Positions 6,849 to 54,172 of a stretch of 64,000 nucleotides of DNA are shown here, one piece after another. Every line of letters begins with the position of its first letter. The first letter of the stretch is position 1. A program made the position numbers and the translations under genes. The DNA comes from Phytoactinopolyspora limicola (GTDB lineage Bacteria > Actinomycetota > Actinomycetes > Jiangellales > Jiangellaceae): positions 1 to 64,000 of the forward strand of contig NZ_JAAOEN010000020.1 in the NCBI RefSeq assembly GCF_011320225.1. Direction: 5' to 3'. Below the pieces are notes generated by a model. The model did not search any database. It saw only the letters and a list, made by a program, of their open reading frames with translations, and was not told the origin of the DNA.

Positions 6849-6938
6849 GGTGATCGTTGCCGGTTTCGCGTCGCTCACCATAGGTGATCGAACCCCGGAT
6901 TGGGTCGCTATAGCGACGCGAAACCGGCAACGATCACC
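6849..6938. repeat. P-family intergenic palindrome, copy 1
   Basis: Perfect 27-base arms at 6849-6875 and 6912-6938, with a 36-base loop that holds its own TCACC/GGTGA stem. Outer arm sequence is GGTGATCGTTGCCGG. It lies in the 324-base spacer between the cupin gene and namZ, which otherwise holds only Q-family copy 1 and the namZ promoter region. Confidence 0.85.
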
Positions 6939-6994: not shown

Positions 6995-7058
6995 GTCCCC
7001 ATGATCATTGGCTTTTGACTACCGAATCCGGTAGTCAAAAGCCAATGATCATGGGGAC
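6995..7058. repeat. Q-family intergenic palindrome, copy 1
   Basis: Perfect 30-base arms at 6995-7024 and 7029-7058 around the loop AATC. Outer sequence is GTCCCCATGATCATTGG; the inner stem (TTTTGACTACCG) differs from Q copies 2 and 3 but still pairs perfectly. The cupin gene runs into the right arm, and its stop codon (tca at 7049-7051) is part of the palindrome. Confidence 0.9.
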
Positions 7059-7762
7059 GTGAGCACTGGATGGGCGACGTCCGGGCTGCTCGCGGGCCGC
7101 AGTACCCCTAGTAGCCGCAGGTAGCCGGTGCCGAGGTTCTCCACGAGGTGGTGGCAGCCGGCGGGCAGGTAGAACGTCGATCCCGGCCCGATCGTGTACT
7201 GAGCGCCGTCGATCTCGACCTGCCCATGGCCGTCGACGACGTACACCATCTCCGAATAGTCGTGATAGTGGAGCGGGGTACGGATCGGGGGGATGTACCC
7301 GATGAACTGGGTCATCGCGGCGCAGCCGGTGTCCGGGTCGAACAGCACCCGGAACTTCCGGTCGGAGACGGCGTCGCGTGCCTCCTGCTCGGCGAGGTCG
7401 ATGGTGGTGTGCCGGGAGCCGGTGGAGATCTCGGCGGCATCCGGTGAGCTGACGGTGACGACGTCGAGTCCGTCCTCACCCGCCTCGATCTCGAAGGCTT
7501 CGTCGACCGCGATGTACGCCGCGATTCCCGGACGAAGAGGGTGGGTCTGGCCGCCGCGGCGTAAAGTTCCAGAGCCGGCGACGACGAACAACGTCGCTAC
7601 CCGGCCAGCTATTGAACCCGACGTCGACGTCTTCGGCGGGATCCGCCAGTGCTCCTGGCGTAGCTCGGTGGCGTCCGCGGCCTCTTGAAGAACGTGGACG
7701 GCGCGGGAGCCGGCCGCGTCCCACCGGGGGGCGACGTCGTCGACGGTGCGGACAGCGCTCAT
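7049..7762 (-). CDS. Bicupin-like protein
   Basis: A 237-residue protein with two cupin-like barrels. The C-terminal one is clearest: TPLHYHDYSEMVYVVDGHGQVEIDG supplies metal-ligand His and Glu residues, with a later His in LPAGCHHLVENLG. The N-terminal barrel (VVAGSGTLRRGGQTHPLRPG) lacks an obvious ligand set. Cupins of this kind serve as oxygenases, isomerases or sensors; the substrate is unknown. Its ATG overlaps the OsmC stop as ATGA, so the two are translationally coupled. It is the last gene of the IclR-led leftward operon, and its last codons (TSP-stop) lie in a Q palindrome. Confidence 0.75.
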   Translation of the reverse strand: MSAVRTVDDVAPRWDAAGSRAVHVLQEAADATELRQEHWRIPPKTSTSGSIAGRVATLFVVAGSGTLRRGGQTHPLRPGIAAYIAVDEAFEIEAGEDGLDVVTVSSPDAAEISTGSRHTTIDLAEQEARDAVSDRKFRVLFDPDTGCAAMTQFIGYIPPIRTPLHYHDYSEMVYVVDGHGQVEIDGAQYTIGPGSTFYLPAGCHHLVENLGTGYLRLLGVLRPASSPDVAHPVLTSP

Positions 7763-13548: not shown

Positions 13549-13604
13549 GGTGATCGTTGTCGGTTTCCCGTCGCCCTGGCGACGGGAAACCGACAACGAT
13601 CACC
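13549..13604. repeat. P-family intergenic palindrome, copy 2
   Basis: Perfect 27-base arms (13549-13575 and 13578-13604) with only a 2-base loop. Outer arm is GGTGATCGTTGTCGG. It lies between the binding-protein gene and the next gene on the same strand, 65 bases after the stop. The T that replaces C in the arm is matched by A in the other arm, so pairing is conserved. Confidence 0.88.
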
Positions 13605-18355: not shown

Positions 18356-18411
18356 CCATGATCATGAACACTTTGCCGGGCGATAGCCCGGCAAAGTGTT
18401 CATGATCATGG
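18356..18411. repeat. Q-family intergenic palindrome, copy 2
   Basis: Perfect 26-base arms (18356-18381 and 18386-18411) around the loop GATA. Outer sequence CCATGATCATGAACAC; inner stem CTTTGCCGGGC. It lies between the subtilase stop and the lipoprotein start, both leftward. Ten bases separate it from the subtilase stop, which reads TGATCACC. Confidence 0.9.
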
Positions 18412-18420
18412 GGTAGGTGA

Positions 18421-21400
18421 TCAGTCGACTAGCTCCAGCACGGATGCCTCCCCGCGGCCCGGAGCGCCGCCCCGGTACATCAACAGCAGGCCGGTCTCCG
18501 TGGTATTCGGCCCCGGTCCGTTGTCGACGTACTCCAGCGTCTCCCGGCCTCGGGCCGGTACCACACCCGAGCCCACGGAGCCGTCGCCGAAGACACCCAG
18601 GAACCTCTCACCCATCGGGGCGATCGTGATGCCGTCGATCTCGTCACCGGGCCCCCCGAAGTAGGTGTCGACCGCCAGCGCCCGCAGGTCGATGGGGGTG
18701 CCGGCGTCGGCGGCGTTCATCCCGATCTGTTCACCGCAGATCGTCAGCACCGTGTTGGCGCTGTTGGTGTCGTGGTCGGTGAGGAACCAGGCGGCCGCCT
18801 GGTTAGTGGACAGGTCGACCACGAAGGTGGCGTTGCGGCCGTCGTTGAACGCGGAGAACGACAGATCCCGGTTCACGACGACGTAGTCGGGGTCGCCATT
18901 CTGGTCGATGTCGAGCCACAGCTCGAACGATGCCGGCGCGCTGGCGTGAGTCTGACGTTCCCAGGTGTTGACCGCGAACGCGAGCAGGAAAGACTCGTCC
19001 TCCGAACAGAACCCGGCTGGCACCGGGTAGGTGGCCACCCCGAGGTGACGGAGGTCCGGCGTGGGCATGCCCTGGCCCGGGCCACCGGTCTCCTGCTGCG
19101 GGCTGCTGCCGATCAGGGAGTACGTCTCCACCGGTGCGTCCCCGAAGCCGAGGTTGTGTAGCCGGAGGGTGTCCCGGATCGACGTCTCGCGGACGTTGCC
19201 AGCCTGCCTCGGCAGCACGTGCCACGGAACGCGGAGGGTGTTGTGGTCGGCGCCGGACTCGGTGAACGTCAGGTAGCCGTCGGACTCCATGGACGTGAGC
19301 GCGGCGCCGTCGGCGCCCAGGGCGCCCGATCCGAGGTTCCACTCCGGCAGCTTGGTGGTGTCGATGTCCAACCGCACCCGGACGTCGCGGGAACGCCCGG
19401 CCGGCACGGTCACCTGACCCGGCGCACGGACCGTCACCGCTCCCGACGCCTCGTCGTCGGCGAACCGGAAACTGGGTGTGATGTCGAACCGCATCCTGCG
19501 GTCGGAGAGGTTGGTGACCTGGACCGTTTCGGTCAACGTGACCCGCCGCTCGTGGACTTCGCGGAAGCCGAACGAGAGCACCGCGCCGTGCTGCTCGGGA
19601 ACCCAGGCGACCGCTTCGGCCCCCAGGGCTCGGTCGACCCGGACCTCACCGCCACCGATCCGGCTGATCGGCGCCAGCCCGCCCCCGAGCAGTTCGTGGG
19701 CGTTCTGGATCTCGGTCTCGCCGGTGTTGATGAGGTTGGCCTTGACCTGCATAGCGTCTCGCTCCGGATAGGCCTGCATGAGCAGCGCCGCCGAGCCGGA
19801 CACCATCGGGGCCGCCCCGGACGTCCCGCCGAAGGGCCGGGTGCCGGTTCCGGTGCCGACGAGGGCCGACACCGATGCGCCGGGTGCGGCGATCTCCGGT
19901 TTGACGATGTTCGATCCCATGGTTGGTCCACGAGACGACGAGCCGACGACGTGGCCCACTAGCGGCGCGCCATCGTTGGGGTCGAACCTGACCTGCACCC
20001 CGTCGGCGAGGTGGCTCTTGATAGCGGCGTTCTCCTCCATGCCGATCATGAATCCAGGGATGTCGATCGGGCGGTCTCCGCCGTCGCCGCCGGTGAACGG
20101 GGCTTCTGGTGTCACCAAGCCGATGATGCCGGCCAGGCCGCCGGCCTGACTGATGTAGCTGATCTTGAGGCTGAAGTTGCAGTCGCCACGGTCGACGAGC
20201 ACCACGTAGCCCTCCAGGCTGCCGGGCTCGAAGGGTTCGCAGCCCAAGAGGTTACCCCCGGCGCCGTCGCCGTACTGCACGGGTCCTTCGATGACGTCGT
20301 CGAGCGGCGCTGACCACGGCTGGAAGATGGCGCCGTACTCACCGGCGATCGCCTCGGGCGAGAGGACGTCGAGCACGGGCAGCCGGTCCGCTGGCACGTG
20401 TGTTTGTGCTACCGACAACGCCGACGGCGCGGCCGCGGGGGTACCGGTGATAAACGGCCGGTCCGAGCTGTTCCCGGACGATGCCACCACGAGAACACCG
20501 AGGCCGGCGACGTTCTCCACCGCTTGCGAGAGCTGGTTGTCGAAGTGCTGGCCGTACGAGGCGCCGAGGGACATGTTGACGATGTCGACGGGGTCGCTCG
20601 GGTCGCCGGTACCGTACGGGTCGAGCACCCAGTCCATGGACTGCATCAGGGCGATGCCGGAGCAAGCGCTGTCGAGGGTGGCGCAGACCTTGCCGGCGTA
20701 GAGGTCGACGGCGGGAGCAACACCATCGAGCCCACCCACGATGTCGGCGACGTTGGTGCCGTGGCCTTCCCCGTCGATCGGGTCGGGGTTCGGGTTGAGC
20801 TGCTCCGGCGGGTCGCCGCCAACCCAGAACTCGCCGACGAAATCGTAGCCTTCGACCACCTTGTCGGTGGGGAAGAGCCCGTTGCGTTCGGTGTTGGTGG
20901 GGTCGTCCGGGTCGGTGCCGTAGGCGGCCTCGTATGCCTCGACGGTGCCTTCGCCGCCGAGGTTGGCATGGGTGTAGTCGACGCCGGAGTCCAGCACCGC
21001 TACCCGGATCCCCTCGCCGTCGAAGCCGGCATCGTGTACGGCGTGTCCACCGATGTAGGGGACGGTGTCGGTCAGCGTCTTCTCGTAGTCGATGACCCGG
21101 GCGATCGACAGCACTCGGTCGTCTTCGGCCAACTCCGCGAGGATGTCGGCGTCGACTTCGACCATCACCGCGTTCAGCGCATCCGAAACGGACGCGACCT
21201 CGGTGGCGGCGCCGTCTCGGCTGGTGACCGTGCGCAGGATGGCGTCCTGCTGGCGTTCTACGGCAGCCTTCTGGGCCTGCCGCTCGGCGCGGGTGGCATC
21301 CGCGGCCGTGACCACCGCGACGGGCTCCTCGCTGAGCTGGATGCTGACTAGTTCGGTGCCGGTGGCGTCGAGCAGGGCGGGATCGAGTTTGCTCTCTACT

Positions 21401-21561
21401 TCGGACCGGGTCGCGGTGACCGGCTCGTCGAGCTTGAGGTCGCCGAAATGGTCGGAGAACGGGCGTTCAGGCTGCTCCAGATGTTCCTGGGCCACCACTG
21501 CCGAGGTGCCAGCGGCGATCAAGCCGAGGGAAATGACGGCGATCGCGAGTTTTCTTACCAT
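18421..21561 (-). CDS. Secreted subtilisin-like serine protease (S8) with PA domain
   Basis: A 1046-residue secreted protease. Signal peptide about 1-24, an inhibitor I9-like propeptide (about 68-160, LVSIQLSEEPVAVV), then the subtilase domain with Asp191 in AVLDSGVDYTHAN, His267 in DGEGHGTNVADIVGG and Ser581 in GGTSGAAPMVSGSAAL. A PA insert lies between His and Ser (about 410-540; VVLVDRGDCNFSLK). Beta-rich C-terminal domains fill the last 400 residues. GGGAGGAT precedes the ATG at 21561; an earlier in-frame ATG at 21609 is unlikely. Function: extracellular protein degradation. No sorting motif is seen. Confidence 0.94.
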   Translation of the reverse strand: MVRKLAIAVISLGLIAAGTSAVVAQEHLEQPERPFSDHFGDLKLDEPVTATRSEVESKLDPALLDATGTELVSIQLSEEPVAVVTAADATRAERQAQKAAVERQQDAILRTVTSRDGAATEVASVSDALNAVMVEVDADILAELAEDDRVLSIARVIDYEKTLTDTVPYIGGHAVHDAGFDGEGIRVAVLDSGVDYTHANLGGEGTVEAYEAAYGTDPDDPTNTERNGLFPTDKVVEGYDFVGEFWVGGDPPEQLNPNPDPIDGEGHGTNVADIVGGLDGVAPAVDLYAGKVCATLDSACSGIALMQSMDWVLDPYGTGDPSDPVDIVNMSLGASYGQHFDNQLSQAVENVAGLGVLVVASSGNSSDRPFITGTPAAAPSALSVAQTHVPADRLPVLDVLSPEAIAGEYGAIFQPWSAPLDDVIEGPVQYGDGAGGNLLGCEPFEPGSLEGYVVLVDRGDCNFSLKISYISQAGGLAGIIGLVTPEAPFTGGDGGDRPIDIPGFMIGMEENAAIKSHLADGVQVRFDPNDGAPLVGHVVGSSSRGPTMGSNIVKPEIAAPGASVSALVGTGTGTRPFGGTSGAAPMVSGSAALLMQAYPERDAMQVKANLINTGETEIQNAHELLGGGLAPISRIGGGEVRVDRALGAEAVAWVPEQHGAVLSFGFREVHERRVTLTETVQVTNLSDRRMRFDITPSFRFADDEASGAVTVRAPGQVTVPAGRSRDVRVRLDIDTTKLPEWNLGSGALGADGAALTSMESDGYLTFTESGADHNTLRVPWHVLPRQAGNVRETSIRDTLRLHNLGFGDAPVETYSLIGSSPQQETGGPGQGMPTPDLRHLGVATYPVPAGFCSEDESFLLAFAVNTWERQTHASAPASFELWLDIDQNGDPDYVVVNRDLSFSAFNDGRNATFVVDLSTNQAAAWFLTDHDTNSANTVLTICGEQIGMNAADAGTPIDLRALAVDTYFGGPGDEIDGITIAPMGERFLGVFGDGSVGSGVVPARGRETLEYVDNGPGPNTTETGLLLMYRGGAPGRGEASVLELVD

Positions 21562-38814: not shown

Positions 38815-39075
38815 TCAGCGGGGGCCGCGTCCACCCTCGGTATAGGGCAGCAGCGCCATCTCACGAGCGTTCTTGATCGCCCGCGCCACCTCACGTTGTT
38901 GCTGCGGGGTGAGACCTGTGACTCGCCGGGAGCGGATCTTGCCGCGGTCGGAGATGAAGGTGCGCAGGAGGTTGACGTCCTTGTAGTCGACATACGTGAT
39001 GCCGGCCGCGTCGAGCGGATTCTTCCGCTTACGAGCGGACCGCTTGTCGGGTTTGATCTGCTTGCGGTTGGCCAT
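38815..39075 (-). CDS. rpsR2: Ribosomal protein S18 paralog, cysteine-free
   Basis: An 86-residue S18 with the usual core ([51 protein letters not shown]). It contains no cysteine, whereas zinc-binding S18 proteins carry CxxC. It stands alone instead of with rpsF, ssb and rplI, where the housekeeping copy lies. Both facts fit the zinc-independent paralog made under zinc starvation. A 7-1-7 Zur-like palindrome is 69 bases upstream of the start. The start ATG at 39075 lacks a strong ribosome binding site. Confidence 0.9.
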
Positions 39076-39158: not shown

Positions 39159-39290
39159 ACTGGCGGGTGTGGAGCTGCTCAATGGTGACGTATGCGGGTG
39201 CCTGCGGCTCGCCTCACGAGTATCCCACCGATGCCGGCCGGTTGCCAGGTGTAGCTGGAGTGCGGTGATGCAAGGTGAAGTGACCCCTCC

Positions 39291-39356
39291 CGTCCCCATG
39301 ATCATGAACACTTTTCCGGGTTATCACCCGGAAAAGTGTTCATGATCATGGGGACG
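39291..39356. repeat. Q-family intergenic palindrome, copy 3
   Basis: Perfect 31-base arms (39291-39321 and 39326-39356), extendable by two more pairs, around the loop TATC. Outer sequence CGTCCCCATGATCATG; inner stem AACACTTTTCCGGGT, one base different from copy 2 with the complementary change in the other arm. Confidence 0.92.
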
Positions 39357-39455
39357 GGGGCATGGGGGTCGATGAAGGTGGACCTGGATCGTGTCGCTTC
39401 CATCTGGGCCTTCAGGTCGTCCGGTGCGCCGGCGGCGGCGACGGTACCCTCGGAG

Positions 39456-39564: not shown

Positions 39565-40284
39565 CTACGTCCGGCCGTTGGTCGTCAGCGACGCCAGGAG
39601 AGACACGTTCTTGCTCGTGATACCTGTGACGCCGAGCCGGAGAGCGTCGTCCAGATCTCCTTGGGTGTCGACTGGCCACGTGATGACGTGACGGACGCGG
39701 CGGCGCAGCTCGGCGACGATGGCCGGCGAAAGCAGAGTGCGGTGAACCGAGCATCCGAAGATGGACTGTTGGTTCGGCCAGGCGTCCGGCCCCTTGCGGA
39801 TGAGTCCCCGTAACCGCTCCACCATTGGCCAGCTACCGGCGGACAGAATCGGTCGGATATCCGGGAGGTCGGCGAACGATTTGAACATCCACCAGTGCGG
39901 AGTGGAGATGGCCACCGGAACCCCTGCGGCGTGTTCCTGCAGCACGCGGGCTACCGCTGGGCCGAGGCCCAGGCGTACGCCCTTGAGATCCAGCATGAGG
40001 CGGTGCCGGTCGGGGCCCAGCTGGTCGAGGACCTCGGCCAGGGTGGGCACCGGGGTGTCATGCCGGTTCATCACCTCACCGGGCTCCCAGAGGAGCTGCC
40101 GCCCCAACGTCTTGGCGTGCCGCACCTCCGGTACCCCTTTGAAGTAGCGGACGTCGGCTTCGACGAGGTCCACGCCGGCTTCGAGCGCCGTACGCAGGGC
40201 GTCCGTAACGTTGCCGGCACGGTGGGCTACGGTGAGCAACGGACGATCACCGCGGCCACCGTGCGAATCACCGTTTGTGGTCAT
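39565..40284 (-). CDS. Glycerophosphodiester phosphodiesterase-like protein
   Basis: A 239-residue TIM-barrel protein. VAHRAGNVTDALRTALEAG followed by VDLVEADVRYFKGVPEVRHAKTLG matches the GDPD start, but the usual PENT motif is replaced by NVTDA and the catalytic HD pair reads RHAKT. The later LMLDLKG is conserved. The protein is short and may have altered activity. No signal peptide, so cytoplasmic. GAGG precedes the ATG at 40284. Confidence 0.75.
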   Translation of the reverse strand: MTTNGDSHGGRGDRPLLTVAHRAGNVTDALRTALEAGVDLVEADVRYFKGVPEVRHAKTLGRQLLWEPGEVMNRHDTPVPTLAEVLDQLGPDRHRLMLDLKGVRLGLGPAVARVLQEHAAGVPVAISTPHWWMFKSFADLPDIRPILSAGSWPMVERLRGLIRKGPDAWPNQQSIFGCSVHRTLLSPAIVAELRRRVRHVITWPVDTQGDLDDALRLGVTGITSKNVSLLASLTTNGRT

Positions 40285-40370
40285 GGGGGCCTCAGGGTCG
40301 GTTCGATTGCTGTTCTCCACCCATTATGAACCTCGTCACCCGTTGCTCAACTTCTCTGTGCGAGGAATCG

Positions 40371-53967: not shown

Positions 53968-54033
53968 TCTCCGTTTGTTCACCTGATCTCCGTTTGTTCA
54001 CCTGATCGCGTGCGTGCGAGCGATCAGGTGAAC
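53963..54033. repeat. 19-bp direct repeats and GATCAG hairpin
   Basis: CCTGATCTCCGTTTGTTCA occurs twice in tandem (53963-53981, 53982-54000). A hairpin follows with perfect 14-base arms GTTCACCTGATCGC (53996-54009) and GCGATCAGGTGAAC (54020-54033). The first copy overlaps the sseC stop. Confidence 0.8.
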
Positions 54034-54172
54034 AACTCGGTCCATCGGGGGCCGGGACGGCATCTGATCGCGTCTCATCTTCCGGACGCCAATGGATCAG
54101 ATGCACATTTGCCGGGACACGGGCCGTTGGTGCATCTGATCGCCTCCAACGGGTTCAGTAGACGAGTGCTTG
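54018..54172. repeat. Direct duplication, copy 1 (with DsrE 3' tail)
   Basis: About 155 bases nearly identical to 54549-54701. It holds several GATCAG stem-loop sites and ends with a copy of the last 18 or so bases of the DsrE gene (ttcagtagacgag then tgcttg). So this copy carries a fragment of a gene 3' end outside the gene itself. Confidence 0.85.

Follow-up and report, generated by a model that had tools for sequence, protein, structure and literature searches.

What are the three long hairpins in a 64-kb stretch of Phytoactinopolyspora limicola DNA (64,000 nucleotides, hereafter the window), and what placed them there? A preliminary description of the window took their perfection as a sign of strong selection or copying for self-pairing, for example as a cruciform or as a REP-like hairpin recognized by a transposase. 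They belong to a family that we call A, and the window also contains hairpins of related types:

6850-6937, compound hairpin of the B family, with GTGATCGTTGCCGG outer arms and a second half element within
6995-7058, hairpin of subfamily A2 (TGATCATTGGCTTTTGACTACC), 30 perfect pairs, loop AATC
13549-13604, hairpin of the B family (GTGATCGTTG arms), 26-bp stem, loop CCTG
18356-18411, hairpin of subfamily A1 (TGATCATGAACACTTTGCC), 26-bp stem, loop GATA
39289-39358, hairpin of subfamily A1 (TGATCATGAACACTTTTCC), 33-bp stem, loop TATC
53994-54035, hairpin of a third TGATC family (CACCTGATCG arms), 16-bp stem

The three A hairpins lie where they were first reported, except that the third is two bases longer at each end. 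They fold far better than their own shuffled sequences (z about -14.8 to -14.9, with 0/200 shuffles as good). The second and third copies had been said to differ by a paired change; the actual difference is two paired changes plus the loop. No Rfam match above the gathering score was found in the window. As to their neighbors, the called minus-strand gene 7049-7762 stops at the TGA contained in the right arm of the 6995-7058 hairpin when that arm is read on the minus strand. The 18356-18411 hairpin is found 9 bp past the stop of the called minus-strand gene 18421-21561, and the 39289-39358 hairpin lies in the gap between two called minus-strand genes, 38815-39075 and 39565-40320, over 200 bp away from each.

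The family extends well beyond the window, against the possibility, raised at the outset, that no more copies exist. The P. limicola genome (G000; 6.59 Mb in 40 contigs) was searched for the constant outer part CCATGATCAT on both arms, with lengths of 40 to 70 bp allowed. The pattern CCATGATCATN{20,50}ATGATCATGG occurs with exact arms at 111 places, compared with none for the reversed control, and the exact-arm copies listed, about half of the 111, are 56 bp long. A base-shuffled 800-kb control yielded no long hairpin. Thus, the family exceeds chance expectation. In a sampled 1.40 Mb of the genome we counted 105 TGATC-type hairpins, of which 72 are of type A (TGATCA arms, 50-bp core) and 25 of type B (TGATCG arms), the remaining 8 being left out of both counts. 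Single arms are scarce in the same 1.40 Mb, with 80/82 and 64/64 arm motifs occurring in pairs. The B family (GTGATCGTTG arms, GTCGCTATAGCGAC center) has 21 exact-arm copies in the whole genome, some of them bearing an additional outer stem (CGGATTTCCGCCC) together with nested half elements; no partner gene of this family was found.

Every one of the 72 sampled A copies can be assigned to A1 (40 copies) or A2 (32 copies), and the outer 11 pairs are invariant inside each subfamily. Inner pairs vary with both sides changed, as at pair 17 of A1 (G-C in 29 copies, C-G in 3, T-A in 3). The statement that every change is matched in the other arm holds for the three copies of the window, but 52 of the 1656 pairs at positions 1 to 23 of the 72 copies (3.1%) are mismatched. 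Pair 24, next to the center, is unpaired in 60% of A1 copies, and the loop is therefore free. Pair 21 of A1 has mixed arms (T-A in 23 copies, G-C in 8, T.C in 8, G.A in 1), as expected if arms recombine or correct each other.

Flanking sequence beyond the core is rich in pyrimidines on the left and in purines, with an excess of G, on the right. The flanks of the 72 A copies pair with their own partner over a mean of 7.6 bp, compared with 3.3 bp for cross pairs, and pairing of at least 10 bp is found in 24/72 copies compared with 1.0% of cross pairs. Around the gene-containing units described below, mostly from Jiangella, this pairing is slight (3.4 versus 2.8). Insertion of the element into the loops of preexisting pyrimidine/purine terminators was considered as a source of the paired flanks and dropped, the ordinary gene-end hairpins listed not being of that type by eye. 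At two places, C1:251614-251711 and C1:700191-700286, the stem reaches about 48 pairs, of which at least the outer 20 are found only at that site, still paired and with pyrimidines predominating on the left. These two stems are explained by neither copying nor ordinary insertion.

Relative to the genes called in this analysis, the 72 A copies are found in 37 tandem, 23 convergent, and 10 divergent gaps, with 2 copies at sequence ends. The preliminary description had called for their position relative to gene ends: they are mostly at 3′ ends, 76 of the 83 that adjoin the 60 tandem and convergent copies being within -50 to +60 bp. The TGA of an arm serves as the stop codon at 32 of these 83 ends. 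In an unbiased 864 kb containing 22 A copies, 11 are tandem, 8 convergent, and 3 divergent, whereas 10.4, 4.7, and 6.9, respectively, are expected from intergenic length; the shortage of divergent and the excess of convergent copies are both nonsignificant (P about 0.1), and thus no bias between gap types can be claimed. Mismatches read in the mRNA sense in the 37 tandem copies comprise 11 G.U and 2 A.C (two-sided binomial, about 0.02, with nonindependent copies), a hint of selection on RNA.

No T-run follows the stem of these hairpins, whose right flanks are G-rich, and it had been concluded that ordinary termination does not explain them. This does not follow, since the ordinary gene-end hairpins of P. 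limicola likewise lack T-runs by eye and the A hairpins are themselves at 3′ ends. A comparison of 59 gene ends between P. limicola and G004 revealed a hairpin in both species at 11 ends, usually of different sequence; at the other ends compared, the element is present in one species alone. At the position of the P. limicola hairpin C1:247042, G004 carries a decayed copy.

Copies are present in 19 of 22 Jiangellales genomes, at 6 to 111 per genome. Only lengths of 53 to 58 bp were allowed in this search, and the near-constant length across the order is thus partly set by the pattern. The named genomes among the matches listed are mostly Jiangella, Phytoactinopolyspora, and Haloactinopolyspora; other matches listed come from elsewhere, e.g., Dactylosporangium, a Bifidobacterium, and several MAGs. 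In relatives the inner stem is often imperfect, and the listed copies of G001 keep the outer arms and a length of 56 to 57 bp with many inner mismatches. Near-perfect stems are therefore a trait of the P. limicola genome and not a rule of the family. Random stem mismatches in copies elsewhere, which the preliminary description took as evidence against its reading, are accordingly rare in P. limicola and common in its relatives.

A gene of about 320 codons is located between two hairpins in G009, G010, J. anatolica, and P. limicola. Homologues of its product at an E value of 1e-20 are present in 20/22 Jiangellales genomes, and 58 homologues above 490 bits occur in 17/22. We examined 46 of these 58 (27 + 19; L286, L287, and L309 are near contig ends) and found TGATC-class hairpins on both sides of 29, on one side of 12, and around none of 5. 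In contrast, only 3/1059 control genes of at least 600 bp, taken from the same genus and four Jiangella stretches, have hairpins on both sides; one of the three is the 320-codon gene itself and another an ORF antisense to it, leaving one. The distance from the protein match to the start of the 3′ hairpin is -1 to 16 bp, and that from the end of the 5′ hairpin to the match is 53 to 191 bp, wherever these hairpins were found.

The two hairpins of a locus match each other. The identity of inner sequences is 0.935 within loci and 0.608 between loci (maximum of 20,000 permutations, 0.723), the own partner hairpin is best or tied in 24 of the 29 two-sided loci, and gene similarity correlates with hairpin similarity (rho 0.645; 0/2000 permutations as high). 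By a stricter matched-pair score, 15/27 strong loci are positive, compared with 5/504 control genes (score of at least 14 within 350 bp). Many of the gene loci occupy one site shared by different species, so that the 46 loci are not independent and the gene is partly a stable resident. Orthology was also suspected for the two-hairpin loci L268, L281, and L152; it was not borne out by alignment, as their flanks differ and what they have in common is the gene between hairpins. The association of gene and hairpins is strong.

Two homologues are strong in P. limicola (619 and 615 bits, followed by one of 116), each with its own type of hairpin:

C12:12627-13574, partner gene 1, flanked by A2 hairpins
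C10:92356-93324, partner gene 2, flanked by A1 hairpins

All 72 sampled A copies, including the four that flank these genes, are A1 or A2. By analogy, two genes for two subfamilies is the relation of RAYT to its REPs. Presence of the gene and presence of the hairpins do not coincide throughout the order. G005 and G021 have 20 hairpins each and only distant homologues of the partner gene; in G008, homologues are present (best, 2e-87) and these hairpins are absent. G006 and G007 (75% complete) lack the hairpins as well as homologues at 1e-20, and a wider profile finds two distant homologues in G006.

The AbiEi_4 domain of the partner protein scores 6.7e-13 in the P. limicola copy, and PADLOC reports AbiEi at 7e-28. 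An AlphaFold model (mean pLDDT, 84.6) gave Foldseek matches to AbiEi (6y8q, 8.5e-7) and Rv2827c (1.8e-3). The N-terminal part is thus predicted to be an AbiEi-like winged-helix DNA-binding domain. According to PMC7319586, AbiEi and Rv2827c bind inverted repeats, and AbiEi proteins regulate themselves by binding inverted repeats in their own promoters. The C-terminal part matches DUF559 below the cutoff (0.04 to 0.07); folded alone (pLDDT, 76.6), it best matches a mitoribosomal protein at 0.056. This is followed by PvuRts1I, 3hrl, and AbaSI at E values of 0.3 to 1.3, with 3hrl also matched weakly at 1.2. We take these three to be Vsr-like, and the matches do no more than suggest a possible Vsr-like (PD-(D/E)XK) nuclease domain. 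The Pfam models available for the family are limited to an antitoxin-like domain and one domain of unknown function, and NCBIfam has none. A search for plasmid carriage gave no match, and a phage search gave one weak match, in an unannotated record. The RAYT-type transposase for which the preliminary description had proposed a search was not what emerged: Y1_Tnp (PF01797) has no match in the P. limicola genome, while 5/14 control genomes match, and the partner found is an AbiEi-like, possibly Vsr-like gene. The broader notion of a dispersed, REP-like, self-pairing element with a partner protein is supported.

The leader between the 5′ hairpin and the gene has a further hallmark. The motif.T[AG]TCCACA, which we take to resemble a DnaA box, is present on either strand in the 200 bp upstream of 43/46 genes compared with 16/1373 controls, and the stricter TT[AG]TCCACA upstream of 29/46 compared with 12/1373, orthologous loci being counted separately. 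Within 250 bp, the former motif is present at 19 of 23 distant Jiangellales loci (L361 included) and at only 7/22 loci outside Jiangellales. Only 3 of the 72 A copies of P. limicola have it within 150 bp, and two of those three are the 5′ hairpins of the two partner genes.

Homologues at 1e-15 were found in 62 of 118 genomes sampled across the class. Outside Jiangellales, our sample was the 22 loci returned from the 54 such genomes with a match. A matched hairpin pair is present at 8 of them (L337, L348, L349, L350, L351, L353, L359, and L360) and absent at 14, with a score of at least 24 and flanks of 450 bp, whereas the control (5/504, the five uninspected) was run at a score of at least 14 with flanks of 350 bp. 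The hairpins of L337 and L350 have TGATC arms in common, and the other six differ. Of three GATCTTGGAG hairpins in G111, two flank the gene of L360; of three CCATGATCTGGTG hairpins in G126, two adjoin the gene of L340 on the same side. Four of the 23 distant Jiangellales loci scored as matched pairs, one of which (L331) is a coordinate artifact.

A GATCTTGGAG pair also brackets an AbiEi_1/MTES_1575/DUF559-type gene in G011, J. anatolica (L361 1501-2673), for which only AbiEi_1 of these three models is above the cutoff. Hairpins of this type, about 66 bp long, number 81 in G018, 29 in G020, and 15 in G016. Other hairpin families were seen along the way. Hairpins similar to those of the third TGATC family (CACCTGATCG arms) are found beside distant AbiEi-type homologues in Jiangella (L323, L324, and L331). 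Two families are of long hairpins, ACTGCGCTACCGCCAGATGG (P. limicola C1:418213-418280 and C1:680441-680508) and CGGTGGAGGGTTTT (C1:271959-272046 and L314 1308-1403, the latter upstream of a distant AbiEi-type homologue). A separate hairpin-like repeat of about 180 bp, at about 6385-6580 of L151, has many copies in Jiangella genomes.

One locus bears on movement. Upstream of a gene that we read as metG, G019 and J. anatolica have an empty site (short spacer, same start); the unit, whole or in part and in either of two orientations, occupies it in G009, G016, J. rhizosphaerae, J. muralis, and J. endophytica. In G009 the 20-bp spacer is for the most part unrecognizable, and G010 has something else there. 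The site is compatible both with a new insertion at a favored site and with an old insertion followed by loss and inversion. There is no target-site duplication of 5 or more around the 72 A copies (own mean, 0.44; cross, 0.40), nor a signal around the units (0.90 versus 1.01). By analogy with REP/RAYT, the hairpins and the unit have probably moved.

We consider it probable that the hairpins are scattered, nonautonomous members of a two-part selfish, or domesticated, element, mobility being the best reading of the data. The full unit, of about 1.1 kb, consists of a hairpin, a leader of about 50 to 190 bp with the DnaA-box-like motif, the gene of about 320 codons, and a second hairpin of the same sequence as the first, whose TGA arm can provide the stop codon of the gene. 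The DNA-binding domain would recognize the hairpin arms, and the C-terminal domain would nick or cut the hairpin as a cruciform or single strand, after which repair or replication would copy it elsewhere; the DnaA box may couple expression or copying to replication. Copies would survive mainly past stop codons, where the arm brings its own stop and the stem is harmless or helpful as a structure at the mRNA 3′ end. Gene and hairpins together suggest a spreading genetic unit of an unrecognized kind; the likeliest form is a REP/RAYT-like system whose enzyme is unrelated. A wider proposal may also hold, if with somewhat more doubt than confidence: the AbiEi-Vsr-like fusions common across Actinomycetes would be the enzymes of an unrecognized mobile class, each recognizing its own hairpin and, as replication proceeds (which would explain the DnaA box), copying it to gene ends, so that genomes are seeded with bidirectional 3′-end hairpins.

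The same observations can be read without present mobility. The protein might be an AbiEi-like regulator whose 5′ hairpin is an operator and 3′ hairpin a terminator, the scattered copies being further sites for the protein or an RNA-processing enzyme that arose by old duplications. Autoregulation of AbiEi through promoter inverted repeats (PMC7319586) fits this regulon, as do the frequent orthology of gene loci between species, the single inner sequence type kept by the metG-side hairpins, one hairpin site common to P. limicola and G004, and the lack of target-site duplication. However, most sampled copies are past stop codons rather than at promoters, inner sequences and copy numbers are species specific, and one locus exists in empty, occupied, and inverted versions, so that we regard a regulon as unlikely.

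More doubtful is the idea that the hairpins are plain terminators or stabilizers of mRNA 3′ ends, with selection keeping them perfect, gene conversion or template-switch repair keeping them alike, and the nuclease gene merely using the same hairpins. It would account for the clustering at 76/83 adjoining gene ends, the G.U excess in tandem copies (11 to 2), the pairing of outer flanks with their own partner (24/72 at 10 bp or more, cross pairs 1.0%), and the 11/59 ends with a hairpin in both P. limicola and G004, usually of different sequence, but gives no account of the hairpin upstream of the nuclease gene, the match of the pair, or the strong preference for that gene. Classical REPs moved by a RAYT (a Y1 HUH transposase), or MITEs of a DDE insertion sequence, would likewise be dispersed palindromes mostly outside genes. 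Both are highly improbable. Y1_Tnp has no match in P. limicola in a search in which controls match; the near-absence of single arms in the 1.40 Mb and the lack of target-site duplication also argue against them, and specifically against a MITE of a larger insertion sequence.

If the mobile reading is true, it gives a role to a gene family matched in more than half of the sampled genomes of the class, implies an origin of REP-like populations with an enzyme that has no relation to HUH transposases, and means that a hairpin-spreading element writes gene ends and stop codons genome-wide. The cognate pairs, the match of two genes to two subfamilies, and the DnaA-box leader make this reading directly testable.

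Among known systems, the efar, ERIC, Ypal, and Correia elements are short palindromic repeats near gene ends, as are the hairpins described here; to our knowledge, no partner gene of AbiEi/Vsr-like type is known for them. Among the open-access papers listed in literature searches, none reports an association of hairpins with AbiEi, DUF559, or Vsr genes. None of six actinobacterial terms occurs in PMC3733652, and in the passages of PMC12306157 covered "actinomycet" occurs once, in a table row of three species. Type IV toxin-antitoxin AbiEi proteins (Streptococcus agalactiae AbiEi, Mycobacterium tuberculosis Rv2827c) resemble the partner protein in N-terminal sequence and fold, and they bind inverted repeats (PMC7319586). 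Unlike them, the present protein has an extra C-terminal domain, and its gene is alone between hairpins in the units read. That C-terminal domain weakly resembles Vsr-like endonucleases, DUF559, and MTES_1575, with matches near or below the cutoffs. The closest parallel is REP/REPIN with RAYT (TnpA-REP). The present system differs in its AbiEi-like, possibly Vsr-like partner, no Y1 HUH transposase having been found in P. limicola, in a stem that is near-perfect, about 26 bp long, and almost constant in length, and in the DnaA-box-like leader. A REP has a conserved tetranucleotide tag (GTAG or CGTC) next to an imperfect stem; the constant outer part seen here, also used as the search pattern, is CCATGATCAT on both arms. 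A RAYT gene is bracketed by the same palindromes that are dispersed in its genome, is paired as a cognate with a palindrome subfamily, and is largely kept by descent, and the gene and hairpins described here share each of these features.
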